A DNA stretch of 64,000 nt from Bacteroidales bacterium. GTDB lineage: Bacteria; Bacteroidota; Bacteroidia; Bacteroidales; UBA932. A program made the position numbers and the translations under genes. Each line of letters begins with the position of its first letter. Position 1 is the stretch's first letter. The notes beneath the pieces are model-generated. The model was not told the DNA's origin and searched no databases. It saw nothing but the letters and a program-made list of their open reading frames with translations. The DNA lies in NCBI GenBank assembly GCA_017550525.1, contig JAFZOU010000014.1:1-64000 (forward strand), written 5' to 3'. Below are positions 10,052-27,804 of this stretch, piece after piece.

Positions 10052-12439
10052 TTAGCAATGTCTCATCTTTGCGAATTTGAGTATCAGCAGTTTATCTCCA
10101 TACTGATCGAAATGGACGCGTGCTTTGAGATCCGGAACCTGGCCCAGAATCTCCAGGATTTTCCCTTTTCCAAAACGGTTGTGCTCTATGCTGTCCCCTG
10201 CCTTGAAGGAGGTCATGGGGTCCGGGACAAAGTTGGCGTCTATGACCGGCGGCTTCACCATGGACGCCCGGTCCTGGCCGGGCGTGACGGTAGGACGGGC
10301 CAAAGGCGTAGCGGAAGGACGGGCCGATGGTGTGGTGGAAGGTCTTGGGGGGGAAATGACGGAAGGCTTTGCGGCAGTACGTGAGCCGTACACGGTAACC
10401 GGACGGCGCTCCCCGAAGGAGCCGCGGCGCCAGGAGAATCCCACGGAGCCGAAGTCATCGTCGTCGTCACGGCGCCCCGCCTCCATGTCTTCACGCGTGA
10501 GCGGATGATCCAGATACTGGGGCGCTATCTCACGAAGGAAACGGCTGGGAGAATTGCTCTCGTGCTTTCCGTTACGCATACGCGTTTGCGCAAAAGACAC
10601 GGTCACAACCCGTTTGGCGCGGGTAATGGCCACATAGAAAAGCCTCCTTTCCTCCTCAAGGTCCTGGGGCGTAAGGAGCCAGCCGCCGGAAGGGAACAGA
10701 TTCTCCTCCATCCCCGTCACGTATACGTAAGGGAACTCCAGACCCTTTGCGGTATGCACCGTCATGAGGGCCACTTTATTGGCCGATTCTTCATCCGACA
10801 CATCCACATTTGAGAGCAGCGACACATTCTCAAGGTAGCTTGCGAGGTCCACGCGAGGCGCCTCATCCACGGCTTCTTCCTCGGCGTCCTCCATAAAGAG
10901 TTTCACGCTGTTGAGAAGTTCCTCCAGATTCGCAAAGCGGGACTGGCCCTCGACGGAAGTATCGGCCTTGTAGAATAGATACAGTCCGCTTTCCTGAGCA
11001 AGTGACATTGCCGCATCATATGCATCCTGGAGCCTTTCCCGGGCCCTCAGGATTATGGCGCAGAATGCCCCGAACTTGGGATTTGACGTGGCCGATGCCG
11101 CCTGGAAAAGAGACACTCCCGCCACACGGGCCTCGTCTATAAGGGCATTCAGGGAAGTATTGCCGATACCCCTTGCGGGCTTATTCACTATCCTCTTGAA
11201 GGACTCATCATCATTAGGATTTACAGCCAACTTGAAATATGCCATCATATCCTTTACCTCCGCCCTTTCAAAGAAAGAGTTGCCGGAGTAGATCATGTAT
11301 GGGATGTTGCGGCGGCGAAGCTGCTCCTCAAGTGCCCTGGACTGGGAATTTGTACGGTAGAGTATGGCAAAGTCCTGGTACTCCGCGCTGTCCATACGGA
11401 TGCGCTGAAGGATGGAAGATGCCGTTTGTGCGGCTTCTTCCTGCTCAGTGAAGGTTCTCACAAGATGGATGGGCTCTCCCTTCTCCCCCATAGAAACGCA
11501 TTCCTTGGGGATTCGGCCCTCATTACGGGCGATGAGGGTGTTGGCGGCATTTACTATATTCTGGGTGGAACGGTAGTTACGCTCCAGACGGAAGAGCTTT
11601 GCCCCCGGGAAATCCCTCTGGAAATTGAGGATGTTCTGGATCTGGGCGCCGCGGAAGCCATAGATGGACTGGGAATCGTCACCCACCACGCAGATGTTCC
11701 GGTGCCGTGCCGCCAACTTGAGAAGGATGAGGTACTGGGCCATATTTGTGTCCTGGTACTCATCCACAAGGATGTGGTCAAAGCGGGACGATATATCGGC
11801 AAGTGCCTCCGGAGACTTCTTGAGGAGGATATTCATGTAGAGGAGGATATCATCGAAGTCCATAACGCCTGACTGCTTGCAAAGCGCGCAGTAGGCGGAA
11901 TAGATGCGGTAGATCTCCGGCTTTTTCTGGTGGTTGTCAGATTCCCTGTAGCCGCCGGCGCCGTTGGAGTACGGAGTGGGCGTGATAAGGTCATTCTTGG
12001 CCTTGGAGATGCGTGAGAGGACCTCCTTGGGCTTGTAGAGTTTGTCATCCAGATTGAGGTTCTTGATGCAGGTTTTCACTGCACTCGCGGAATCTGTCTG
12101 ATCATAGATTGTGAAGGTAGGAGGAAATTCTATCACTGAGGCGTAATCCCTGAGGAAGCGGATGAACACGGAGTGGAAGGTTCCCATCCAGATTCGGCGG
12201 GCTTTCCTTTCACCTACCATAAGGCCTATCCTGTCTTTCATCTCACCGGCGGCCTTCTTGGTAAAAGTAAGGGCCAGGATGCGCTCAGGAGGCACCCCAT
12301 TCTCAATCAGATATGCAATCCGGGAAGTTAAAACCCTGGTTTTTCCAGATCCCGCTCCCGCCACGATGAGCATCGGCCCGCTGACACACTCTACAGCCCT
12401 TTTCTGCTCATCGTTCAAATCCTTCAAAATCTCGCTCAT
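10052..12439 (-). CDS. pcrA: ATP-dependent 3'-5' DNA helicase, UvrD/PcrA
   Basis: This superfamily 1A helicase unwinds DNA in nucleotide excision and mismatch repair and clears replication forks. Motifs run in order: LNDEQKRAV (Q motif), GAGSGKT (Walker A), LALTFTKKAA (Ia), VDEYQDTN (II), VVGDDSQSIYGFRGA (III), RLERNYRST (IV), LMTVHTAKGLEFPYV (V) and FYVAITRAK (VI). A Pro/Thr-rich linker (about residues 695-735) precedes a C-terminal Tudor-like tail (HNRFGKGKILEI) typical of PcrA/UvrD. I use ATG 12439; the TTG nine bases upstream is less likely. It diverges from nqrA. Confidence 0.94.
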   Translation of the reverse strand: MSEILKDLNDEQKRAVECVSGPMLIVAGAGSGKTRVLTSRIAYLIENGVPPERILALTFTKKAAGEMKDRIGLMVGERKARRIWMGTFHSVFIRFLRDYASVIEFPPTFTIYDQTDSASAVKTCIKNLNLDDKLYKPKEVLSRISKAKNDLITPTPYSNGAGGYRESDNHQKKPEIYRIYSAYCALCKQSGVMDFDDILLYMNILLKKSPEALADISSRFDHILVDEYQDTNMAQYLILLKLAARHRNICVVGDDSQSIYGFRGAQIQNILNFQRDFPGAKLFRLERNYRSTQNIVNAANTLIARNEGRIPKECVSMGEKGEPIHLVRTFTEQEEAAQTASSILQRIRMDSAEYQDFAILYRTNSQSRALEEQLRRRNIPYMIYSGNSFFERAEVKDMMAYFKLAVNPNDDESFKRIVNKPARGIGNTSLNALIDEARVAGVSLFQAASATSNPKFGAFCAIILRARERLQDAYDAAMSLAQESGLYLFYKADTSVEGQSRFANLEELLNSVKLFMEDAEEEAVDEAPRVDLASYLENVSLLSNVDVSDEESANKVALMTVHTAKGLEFPYVYVTGMEENLFPSGGWLLTPQDLEEERRLFYVAITRAKRVVTVSFAQTRMRNGKHESNSPSRFLREIAPQYLDHPLTREDMEAGRRDDDDDFGSVGFSWRRGSFGERRPVTVYGSRTAAKPSVISPPRPSTTPSARPSATPLARPTVTPGQDRASMVKPPVIDANFVPDPMTSFKAGDSIEHNRFGKGKILEILGQVPDLKARVHFDQYGDKLLILKFAKMRHC

Positions 12440-23951: not shown

Positions 23952-24787
23952 ACCACGTCTTCAAAACGGGGAGGTATGGCCACAATTATCTTGAGGCCGA
24001 ACATTGCAGGCTTGTTCCAGGCATACGGCGGGCGAACAAGGGTCTGGCAGAAACGGGCGAACCGTACCCAGGTCTCAAACTTCCTGGCAGGGAGTTCCGT
24101 CACAAGACGGATGGCGCGGGAACGCTTCTTCATATGCTTTCCCCAGCCCTGTTTCAGGCGGTCCTTGTCATTGAAACGGTCTTCCAGACGCTTCTGGTCA
24201 AAGTAGCCGAAATGGAAGAGGTACAGGTCTTTTGCAATGTGGAAATTCTTTCCCTTGATACGGTGGAAACCGCTGCCCCAGGTAAGGGGCTCGGAGAGGA
24301 TTGAAGGCTTGGTGTAACGCGTCCCAAGCTGGGCATAATGCCTCTGCTGCAGGAAAGGAATCTCATCTGTGATATCTCCCTCAACGCCAATCTTCTGGCC
24401 GAAATCAAGGCCAAGGGCAGAGCAAGAGCCCTTTATCTTGAGTTCGCTCAGATACTCTACAAGCGTCTTTCCAAGTTTAGGGTCCACCACTATGAATTCA
24501 TCGGCATCAACCCCTATCACAAGATCGTAACCGCCGGAAAGGAGTTCCGCCGCCTTCCAGGAAAGGAACTGCAGGCGGCCCTTTTCCGCCTCCACAACCT
24601 TCTTGCCGATTTTTGGAACCTTGAAAGCGTTGGTTCCGCGGCAGAAGTCTCCAATTTCCTGATCCACCCCGTCATAGTAGATATACAGATGATCCTTCCC
24701 TCCAAGTTCCCGGGAATAGTACTGGACCCACTTGCGAAGGTAGAAATCGTCGTTACGGACCATGGTTATGGCTGCAATCTTTTTCAT
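23948..24787 (-). CDS. Glycosyltransferase, Glyco_tranf_2_4 / GT92-like
   Basis: The start [23 protein letters not shown], read around residues 2-25, and the metal-binding VIGVDADEFIVV (about residues 93-104) match the Glyco_tranf_2_4 group, which is related to GT92. A conserved late GSGFHRIKG segment supports this. It is 279 residues and soluble by appearance. It begins four bases inside the end of uvrA and runs straight into the GT2 gene, so it is probably co-transcribed with both. A role in surface glycan synthesis is inferred from neighbours. Confidence 0.82.
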   Translation of the reverse strand: MKKIAAITMVRNDDFYLRKWVQYYSRELGGKDHLYIYYDGVDQEIGDFCRGTNAFKVPKIGKKVVEAEKGRLQFLSWKAAELLSGGYDLVIGVDADEFIVVDPKLGKTLVEYLSELKIKGSCSALGLDFGQKIGVEGDITDEIPFLQQRHYAQLGTRYTKPSILSEPLTWGSGFHRIKGKNFHIAKDLYLFHFGYFDQKRLEDRFNDKDRLKQGWGKHMKKRSRAIRLVTELPARKFETWVRFARFCQTLVRPPYAWNKPAMFGLKIIVAIPPRFEDVV

Positions 24788-27700
24788 AGGTATTTTGCTG
24801 TAAATGTTTTTCCCTGTTTCTTAAGGTCTTCGGGAGTGCCCTCAAACACCACTTCTCCTCCCCTGTCGCCGGCGTCCGGACCAAGGTCTATCACCCAGTC
24901 TGCCGCCCTTATCACATCCAGGTTATGCTCCACCACAAGCACTGTGTGACCCTTGCCGATAAGCGCGTCAAAGGCCTTGAGGAGTTTCTGGACATCGTGA
25001 AAATGAAGGCCGGTTGTGGGCTCATCGAAGATAAAGAGAATCTTGTCCCTGGAGCCGTCACTGATGGAGAGGAAGTACGCCAGCTTGATTCGCTGGCTCT
25101 CGCCTCCGGAGAGTGTACTGGACGGCTGTCCGAGTTTTATGTATCCAAGGCCCACGTCAACAAGCGGCTGCAGCTTCTGGGCTATTGCAATGGCCTCAGG
25201 CTCCTTCTGGGCGCCAAAGAAAGCGATTGCTTCATCTACGCTGAGGTCCAGGATATCGCTAACGTTTAGGCCCTTGTAGTTCACTTCCAGGATTTCCGGC
25301 TTGAAGCGCTTGCCGCCGCAGGACTCGCACACCATGGTTACATCGGCCATGAACTGCATGCCTATCTTCACAAAGCCATCTCCCTGGCATTCAGGGCACC
25401 TTCCGCCCTCCTGGTTGAAGGAGAAATATGATGGAGTGAAGCCGTTGATGCGGGCATACTGCTGCTGGGACAGGAGCTTACGTATGTCGTCGTAGACCTT
25501 GAGATAGGTGACGGCGTTTGAGCGGGAACTCTTGCCGATGGGGTTCTGGTCCACGTACTCCACGCGCGTTATGCGGCTGAGGTCCCCTTCCAGGCCCTTG
25601 AACGTGCCCGGGACATCTCCTGTCTCATTGAGACGGCGGTGCATGGCTGGGTAAAGGATGTCCCCAACAAGGGAACTCTTTCCGCTTCCGGAAACCCCGC
25701 TCACCACGGTGAAAACGTTGAGCGGGATCCTTACATCAATATCCTTGAGGTTGTTCTGCATGGCGCCCTTTATGGTGATGGAGTACCTCCAGGGGTTCTT
25801 TTCCCGCTGGTACTGCTGACGTTGGCCAAAAAGGTACTGCAGGGTAAGAGATGGCCGGTCGGGGCCGGCCATGACGGCCTTGGCGTCATGCCTGACGGTT
25901 TTACCGTCATTCCCGACGTGATCGGGAATCTTACCTTCAAAGACCACCTCTCCGCCATTGATACCGGCCCTTGGACCAAGGTCAATGAGGTAATCGGCCG
26001 CCTTAATGATTTCAGGGTCATGCTCCACAACCACAACGGTGTTTCCAATGTCTCTCAGACGCCTAAGAACCGCAATGAGCCTGTCCGTATCCCTTGGATG
26101 AAGGCCGATGGAAGGCTCATCCAGGATATACATGGACCCCACCAGGGAGCTTCCAAGGGCCGTCACAAGGTTCACCCTCTGGCTTTCACCGCCGGAAAGC
26201 GTATTCATGGTGCGGCTGAGGGTGAGATACCCAAGGCCCACGTCCTCTATGCACTGAAGGCGGTAGCGGATTTCCTCTATGGTTTTGCCGGCTATTGCCT
26301 GCTCCGTTTCAGTAAGGGATTGCCGGTCTGGGCCGGCAATGACGTCAAACCACTTGAGGAGTTCCTCCACGGTCATGGAGAGCAGGTCATGGATGGTCTT
26401 TCCCGCTATTTTCACGTACAGGGCCTCCTTTCGGAGACGGCTGCCGCCGCACGCAGAGCAGGTGGTCCTGCCGCTGTATCGGCTTAACATATACTTGTAC
26501 TGGATCTTGTAGCGGTTACTCTCCACCCACTCGAAGAACTGGTCTATGCCGCAGTATGCGTCAGGGTCCTCGTAGTCACCGCGATATGTCCAGATAATGC
26601 GTTTCTGCTCCTCCGTGAGCTTGCAGTACGGTTCAAATATGGAAATGCCAAGTCTCTCGGCATTCTTTATGAGCTGATCCTTGAACCAACTCATCTTCTC
26701 CCCTCTCCAGCAGGCTATGGCTCCGTCGTAGATGCTCTTTGTCTTGTCCGGCACCACAAGGTCCTCGCTTATGCCGATTATCTTCCCAAGGCCTCCGCAC
26801 ACGGGGCACGCCCCCAGCGGGCTGTTGAAGCTGAAAAGGTATTCATCCGGCCGCCTGAACGTGATCCCGTCCAGTTCAAACCTGGCGCAGAACCTGACAA
26901 GGCCGGAGGAGATAGGGGTGTCAGAATCCCTGGCCACCCTCGGCCGAACCACCCCAAAAATCGACCGATTTTCGGGGGCCCCGGATTCTAACCCTTCGAG
27001 GGGCCCGCTGGCGCAGCCAGTGGGAGGGGTCGGCGCAGCCGACGATTCGGACACCCCTGTCTCCTCCGGCCTCACCCACAGCGCCATATCACCGTTGCCT
27101 TTATCGAAGGCTGTTTGGACGGAGGCATGAAGGCGGGCGCGTAGGTCATCGTCAAGGGTGCCGGTAGTTTTGACACGGTCTACAAGGAGCATCAGGCCGG
27201 CAGGGTATGCGCCGTCCATACGGAGGACGTCCTCAATCTGGAGAATAGAGGAATCGGCAGGATTGAAAAGGCGGCCGAAACCCTCTTCCTTGAGGGCAAG
27301 GAGATACTCAACTTTGTCCTGACGGGAGTTCCAGCCTATATCGGAGAGAATATATACCGCCCTGGGAGTGCCGTCACTTAGAAAATCCAGCACATCCTTC
27401 ACGGAGTGGGCCTTCACTTCACCGCCGCTGACGGGCGAATATGTGCGGCCGATACGGGCAAACAGGAGCCTCAGGAAATCATATATTTCCGTTGTGGTGG
27501 CAACGGTGGAGCGGGGGTTCTTGATGTTCACCTTCTGCTCTATGGCTATTGCCGGAGGGATGCCCTCGATTATGTCTACGTCCGGTTTTGACATACGCCC
27601 AAGGAACTGGCGGGCGTAGGAGGAAAGGCTTTCGGCAAAGCGGCGCTGTCCCTCGGCGAAGAGGGTGTCGAAGGCCAGGGAACTCTTTCCGCTGCCGGAA

Positions 27701-27804
27701 ACGCCGGTGATGACCACAAGTTTACCGCGGGGTATTTCCACGGTAATCCCCTTGAGGTTGTTCTCACGGGCGTTCTTGATTATTATGCTGCTTTCCTTTG
27801 TCAA
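24784..27804 (-). CDS. uvrA: Excinuclease ABC subunit A with in-frame palindromic insertions
   Basis: UvrA recognises bulky DNA damage and loads UvrB. Both ATPase modules are complete: Walker [11 protein letters not shown] twice, signatures [12 protein letters not shown] and [12 protein letters not shown], Walker [12 protein letters not shown] and [11 protein letters not shown], and the zinc sites CPVCGG/CSACGG and CPECQG/CESCGG. At 1006 residues it is longer than the 940 of Escherichia coli. The excess lies in three loops encoded by palindromic DNA: about residues 246-301, 488-498 and 625-653. The frame has no ATG near its start; the codon at 27804 is TTG, preceded in frame two codons earlier by a stop, and lies seven bases after the -7 box. 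Since all catalytic motifs are intact, the protein is probably active. Confidence 0.95.
25851..25929. repeat. Palindromic block A inside uvrA (four hairpins)
   Basis: Four perfect stems follow in series: ATGGCCGG/CCGGCCAT (25851-25872), ATGACG/CGTCAT (25871-25889), TGACGGT/ACCGTCA (25893-25909) and ATTCCCGA/TCGGGAAT (25909-25929). The block encodes, in frame, the stretch around [15 protein letters not shown] of UvrA, in a surface loop before the second ATPase module. Confidence 0.85.
26311..26344. repeat. Palindromic block B inside uvrA
   Basis: The stem ATTGCCGG/CCGGCAAT (26319-26340) and its flanks match the first unit of block A at about 28 of 34 positions in the same orientation. Both encode an AGPDR-x-SLT peptide. 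The block sits in a loop of the first signature domain. Confidence 0.8.
26901..27071. repeat. Palindromic block C inside uvrA (171 bp, 28-bp terminal inverted repeats)
   Basis: Outer arms 26901-26928 and 27044-27071 are complementary at 26 of 28 positions. Inside lie further stems: CCCC-A-AAAATCG paired with its complement (26953-26978), CTGGC-GCA-GCCAG (27008-27020) and GTCGGC-GCA-GCCGAC (27029-27043). The element is open in the uvrA frame and adds about 56 residues. It has the form of a small palindromic insertion element. Confidence 0.85.

Follow-up and report, generated by a model that had tools for sequence, protein, structure and literature searches.

Palindromic repeats that lie in frame inside bacterial genes are best known from Rickettsia, and the Rickettsia palindromic elements (RPEs) are reviewed in PMC10969869. 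According to that review and PMC3733652, RPEs are palindromes of about 150 bp that occur in many copies, in frame, in genes for proteins that are likely to work, tRNA pseudouridine synthase B among them. In lineages other than the present one, PMC3733652 also reports palindromic repeats that interrupt uvrA (O. terrae and Thioalkalivibrio), a DNA ligase and tRNA pseudouridine synthase genes; it lists CGTC repeats in Bacteroidetes and states that no dedicated transposase goes with CGTC repeats. For Bacteroidetes, TnpA-REP genes of subclass 2.6 have been associated with atypical secondary structures (PMC6006769), and miniature elements of the MITE type are defined as sequences of 70-300 bp with terminal inverted repeats of 15-30 bp and no transposase coding capacity (PMC3733652).

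Here we analysed a stretch of 64,000 nucleotides (the window) in which uvrA (24784..27804, minus strand; NCBIfam TIGR00630 uvra, E 2.1e-297) carries an insert of this kind. The insert is one copy of a genus-wide palindromic family that is present in frame in 19 genes of the same genome. It is likely a mobile element of the non-autonomous type, which would move in trans in the form of a folded single strand and which likely survives in genes through being translated. A previous sequence-only reading of the window had described 28-bp terminal inverted repeats (26/28 complementary) and internal stems in an open frame at UvrA residues 246-301. Arm complementarity, a covariance-model match and protein comparison placed the element at 26900..27072 (minus strand; residues 245-301), and uvrA remained open across it for 1006 aa. 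The outer stem, P1, is formed by two arms of 29 nt (26900..26928 and 27044..27072, both given on the plus strand) that are 93% complementary, and the core between them contains the three hairpins of the family plus one extra nested hairpin, all of which bears out that description with a first residue of 245 instead of 246.

On the minus strand, family covariation combined with reading of this copy's sequence placed hairpin P4, with its conserved GGCC-6-GGCC, at 26929..26947, hairpin P3, which is variable across the family, at 27004..27024, and hairpin P2 at 27029..27043. Family covariation also predicted a pseudoknot between the P4 loop (26937-26941, minus strand) and 26998-27002. The extra module of the uvrA copy (26948..26999, minus strand; hairpin at 26952-26977) was recognised by comparison with uvrA of the close relative G204, which has the same element without it; the module has therefore been gained, lost or exchanged since. 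A DNA search of the source genome returned a stretch resembling this module at G000:C135:6144-6176. When the folding of the insert was compared with that of shuffled sequence, z values of -8.7 and -6.3 were obtained for the two strands, and none of 200 shuffles equalled it.

On the solved UvrA structure 3PIH, residues 241 and 256 bracket the position of the insert. None of the 28 other UvrA proteins of the genus that formed the comparison set (L057 was dropped for a split match) had this insert sequence, and 26 of them had no insert of comparable length, so the segment is not a conserved part of UvrA. Genomes G027 (L045) and G019 (L047) presented palindromic inserts at the same junction; these had different arms and shared portions of the core. 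Among the closest relatives, besides G204, the site held a shortened copy with a flipped core in G208 and was unfilled in G288; the G245 contig begins just past the insert, and no state was assigned for G312 and G149.

The family was not confined to uvrA. The covariance model gave 35 matches in the source genome, including a fragment of 33 nt where a contig begins, and, with stricter filters and at most 27 candidates scored per genome, matches in 133 out of 151 genomes of the genus, so that the other copies expected of a repeat were found both at home and in relatives. Partial copies of the uvrA insert were also detected in the source genome by DNA search. Five of the 35 matches gave no locus and one at a contig end (L102) was left out, leaving 29 copies for examination, the cores of which had a mean identity of 0.73. 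In an order-wide sample, matches occurred in 4 out of 198 genomes, the source genome included; one genome scan left 92 of 400 genomes unscored. Genome G576, from another family of the order, had 17 matches. An exact-pattern search gave at least 114 stretches, of which the 80 listed were carried forward (81 of the 86 resulting hits were used for arm profiles); among the matches listed, the 80 named records were all titled Bacteroidales or Bacteroidia bacterium, and many named ruminant digestive tracts.

Could the uvrA segment be a fast-evolving native loop that is palindromic by chance? The length of the junction does vary across UvrA proteins of the genus, but the source genome has the same core in 18 further genes and at 10 non-coding sites, most of the genus genomes searched have it too, and we give this explanation virtually no credence. 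As for the family itself, the uvrA copy had no Rfam match at E values up to 1, six other loci of the source genome had none at the gathering score, viral contigs contained no exact match to the family pattern, and one copy (L074) had no match in phages or plasmids. A literature search with most subscription journals outside its coverage found no description of the family. The sequence-only reading had considered an in-frame palindromic element in a Bacteroidales repair gene to be new; in-gene palindromes, including some in uvrA, were already known elsewhere from PMC3733652, and what is new, by the searches made, is this family. As a separate observation, L103, L385, L386, L390, L393, L413, L415 and L432 represent a subfamily of greater length, in which P3 is large and the core resembles GGGCTTGTGCACCCCCGCACAAGGGTAGGGGGAGGGGCCC; it occupies several of the same sites.

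The structure common to the family combines the outer stem P1 with three hairpins (P2, P3 and P4); in addition, the P4 loop (GAGGG) pairs in a pseudoknot with a CCCTC that lies upstream. We aligned 22 copies (alignment A1, from which the nested uvrA copy was left out), chosen for at least 8 of 10 complementary bases beside the core and for the P4 pattern with 3 substitutions allowed; P1 pairing and P4 conservation are therefore partly selected, while this choice did not act on P2, P3 or the pseudoknot partner. Pairing was found in 93.6% of 780 cells compared to 76.6 in shuffled alignments, and two-sided changes in 150 cells compared to 47.9, a level reached by none of 500 shuffles. Both sides had changed in 24 out of 36 pairs. 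When the partners were slid by one to three columns, pairing dropped to 35-48%. The pseudoknot was 100% paired, with two-sided changes at two of its five pairs (CCCCC with GGGGG, for example). In P2, GTC is paired with GAC, and the first pairs are G-C (21/22) and U-A (16/22). CGTC-REPs, as PMC3733652 defines them, have an unpaired CGTC, a stem of 8-9 bp starting with A-T pairs and a tail that is mostly CCA; with its GTC paired inside P2, this family departs from that description. It also differs in size, since CGTC- and GTAG-tagged REPs are hairpins of 20-40 bp with an unpaired tag and the present elements measure about 130 bp.

Nineteen of the 29 copies lay in frame within open reading frames whose proteins were identified by family search, namely UvrA, LigA, two family-2 glycosyltransferases, MurE, DapF, RsmH, a PdxR/MocR-like aminotransferase protein, RibF, TilS, two MFS transporters, TrmB, an M20 peptidase, a CYTH protein, RsmA, a YggS-family protein, TruA and TruB. 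The other 10 were intergenic or at gene edges. Relative to the gene, the core ran in the same orientation in 9 cases and in the opposite one in 10. We then compared insert lengths at orthologous sites in five close relatives (18 coding and 10 non-coding sites, L094 being taken as coding in the CYTH reading frame). Length differences were divisible by three in 44 out of 45 coding comparisons versus 9 out of 28 non-coding ones (Fisher 7e-10, with related rows not independent), where coding copies of the source genome were recognised by their open frame, so that a gene-breaking copy would count as non-coding. The single frame-breaking coding comparison corresponded to the end of ligA in G208.

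This arithmetic bears on the possibility that the insert is spliced out after transcription or skipped by the ribosome through programmed bypassing, leaving a normal protein. The strong, conserved structure with its pseudoknot, and the presence of copies in genes expected to be important, would suit such a process. Removal or skipping, however, needs no length divisible by three, and yet nearly all coding differences have one; moreover, with the core both ways round in genes, a signal at the mRNA level would have to work from either strand. We rejected RNA excision and ribosome bypassing on the frame arithmetic and regard them as very improbable indeed. Rather than being removed from the RNA, the insert is very likely translated with its host protein, as judged from frame conservation. 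The earlier idea of a mobile repeat that tolerates translation thus gained support from the copies in both orientations in unrelated genes, from presence and absence between close relatives, and from a frame kept only at coding sites. These presences and absences were compared between different species, and it is from them that we infer movement. According to the mechanism we propose, copies would reach many sites, those breaking genes would be lost, and those in frame in tolerant loops would remain.

The arms behaved differently from the core. In the 29 copies they measured 18-33 bp (mean 27) and enclosed cores of 63-122 nt, and the most common arm length among 110 copies was 28 bp. Size, terminal inverted repeats and the lack of transposase coding agree with the MITE definition, from which the family departs in that its arms differ between copies. 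Apart from the few bases closest to the core, the arms of the 110 copies had little sequence in common and were yet 80-99% paired out to position 26, in a profile that allowed arm ends to move by at most 2 bases so as to give the best pairing. Similarly, the arms of the 29 copies had a mean identity of only 0.44 over 24 nt, with pairing at positions 6-26 of 0.915 compared to 0.392 when partners were shuffled. With the core conserved and pairing the only demand on the arms, the mover would likely read the folded strand and not the arm sequence. Arm mismatches were asymmetric between strands, with A.C on one strand (G.T/G.U on the other) prevailing by 37 to 7 in 66 non-redundant arms and by 30 to 5, with 31 ties, when counted by copy. 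This asymmetry suggests a single-stranded folded stage, although the few informative core-stem cells run counter to it (T.G/G.T 10 vs C.A 1); because the two directions conflict, we do not name the strand that folds.

Unfilled sites indicated where the arms come from. At 9 out of 17 loci (L077, L085, L086, L087, L090, L092, L093, L098 and uvrA), unfilled sites lacked both arms in every comparison, L086 being the clearest, as it is empty in G208, G204 and G312 and filled in the source genome, G245 and G288. Arms therefore most likely arrive with the element, judging by these orthologous sites. At the other 8 loci (L075, L079, L080, L083, L084, L089, L094 and L095), one or more of the unfilled relatives were better matched by a version with a single arm than by an armless one, in a test that is not length-neutral. 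Two of these, L079 in G288 and L080, turned out to be shortened copies retaining a piece of the core, and the unfilled site of L094 retains a small palindrome. The small palindromes at the unfilled sites of L094 and L085 could be targets or the remains of a deletion. No consistent direct repeat indicative of a target site duplication was seen by eye in pairs of empty and filled sites. We also considered whether each insertion copied its flank in reverse, so that one arm would be pre-existing host sequence, duplicated in inverted form as the other arm. Arms are locus-specific, one arm resembled the gene of distant relatives in tilS, ribF and murE, and the one-arm fits at 8 of the 17 loci in at least one row (L095 and L084, for instance) point the same way. 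Against this stand the nine loci whose close unfilled sites have neither arm, the shortened copies and small palindrome among the remaining eight, and the finding that copies at three different loci of G576 (L450, L453 and L456) share one arm, GAAGGAATATGCTTT. Target-derived inverted duplication was consequently rejected as a general rule, not for every locus, and flank copying is in our judgement very unlikely. The shared arm of G576 looks like a recent, young burst and could reveal the mover.

Returning to arms that come with the element, we found that the core between them is not fixed in orientation. Among 32 orthologous copies with arms at least 75% identical, the core was flipped in five. 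At L086 the cores of the source genome and G288 are exact inversions of each other, while L101 (in G245) and L096 (in G312) have a flipped core between kept arms and also a different P3. In some relatives the whole insert had been replaced by another (L078, L080, L082, L088, L091 and L103). Recombination between the two arms, or template switching from one to the other, is the likely origin of the core flips. An alternative is that the core is an invertible switch, flipped between the arms by a dedicated recombinase and varying the peptide of each protein. The five flips with little change in the arms, the flipped remnant in uvrA of G208 and the copies open in frames of both strands are all compatible with a switch, but a sequence-specific recombinase would need arms with common sequence, of which there is little between loci, the flips were seen between species and not within a population, and non-coding copies flip too (L086 and L096). 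We therefore regard a dedicated switch as unlikely. A broader reading, which we put forward tentatively and hold to be possible though not probable, is that the family represents a new, fold-recognised class of mobile element, in which a pseudoknotted core moves as one strand between arms that are free in sequence provided that they pair; the core would be an invertible, exchangeable cassette translated from either strand, so that, throughout the genus, the same loops of housekeeping enzymes would bear replaceable tags some 30-60 residues long.

As to what moves the element, a Y1 (HUH) transposase of the RAYT/IS200 kind is the predicted candidate. Y1_Tnp genes were present in 110 out of 151 genomes of the genus, and in 57 out of 60 genomes with at least 10 elements compared to 22 out of 54 with three or fewer (Spearman 0.48), in a raw trend that ignores phylogeny and genome completeness and in which element counts are limited to the candidates scored. 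As a control, DDE_Tnp_1 showed 19 out of 60 element-rich versus 22 out of 54 element-poor genomes (rho -0.10). Exceptions were found in both directions, 6 of 18 element-free genomes having Y1 and 3 of 60 element-rich genomes showing none. The family thus resembles the CGTC- and GTAG-tagged REPs with RAYTs in that Y1 transposase counts track element counts in this genus and in being palindromic repeats; the repeats described in PMC3733652 include some inside uvrA, DNA ligase and tRNA pseudouridine synthase genes. Unlike RAYT-associated REPs, whose copies flank the transposase gene, the elements did not flank the Y1 genes: among eight Y1 loci (four of the source genome and four of other genomes), a copy was found at one, separated from the Y1 gene by about 1.2 kb and an intervening ORF. 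Conversely, a Y1 homologue was found at 4 of 114 element-bearing named loci, among the matches listed, two of them within about 0.6 kb of a copy, and none of those four had copies on both sides of the Y1 gene. Given that the trend is blind to kinship and that the Y1 genes seen lack flanking copies, we put forward a RAYT-like HUH transposase only as a prediction. Two Y1 genes of the source genome had other palindromes on both sides, L447 (589-696 and 2331-2390) and L448 (232-337 and 2345-2392), with the sequences TTTGGGATTACC/GGTAATCCCAAA and ACCCGCAAT/ATTGCGGGT; from their arrangement, these genes and their palindromes are likely a separate REP-transposase pair. A further one, L446, had no palindromes alongside.

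Set beside RPEs, which were compared by description only, the family belongs to another lineage and shows a core that is branched, pseudoknotted and covarying in its stems, arms that are maintained for pairing with little common sequence, and core flips in place. It shares with them the insertion of a palindromic repeat in frame in open reading frames, seen in 19 of 29 copies and in the length differences at coding sites, and by this behaviour, and not by sequence comparison, it acts as an RPE does. The habit known from Rickettsia is thus also seen in a genus of many species whose listed genomes span 1.1 to 3.7 Mb. The occupied, empty, flipped and exchanged states of one site can be read across related species, so that both the movement of the element and the tolerance of the protein are directly testable. 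The results are also a warning that, where conserved enzymes of these genomes contain inserts of 30-60 residues, the inserts are not necessarily domains.

Other repeats were observed in the same genes. A second, shorter palindromic repeat lies in frame in the same uvrA, at 25853-25876 and 26321-26344 of the window (residues ~624-651 and 487-495), with a further match at 10266-10289. The pattern generalised from 25853-25876 had three matches in the window, the first by construction, and none in shuffles. Among 13 other UvrA proteins compared, a similar repeat was present only in L046 and L047, at the first of its two places. In related species, the same protein loops hold other kinds of in-frame repeat, such as TGTCATTCTGAGCGAAGCGAAGAATC (read as CHSERSEES) and CCCGGCCCCGACCGGGAATC, at L358, L367, L180, L181, L186 and L191, and these loops look like shared landing sites for several repeat families.
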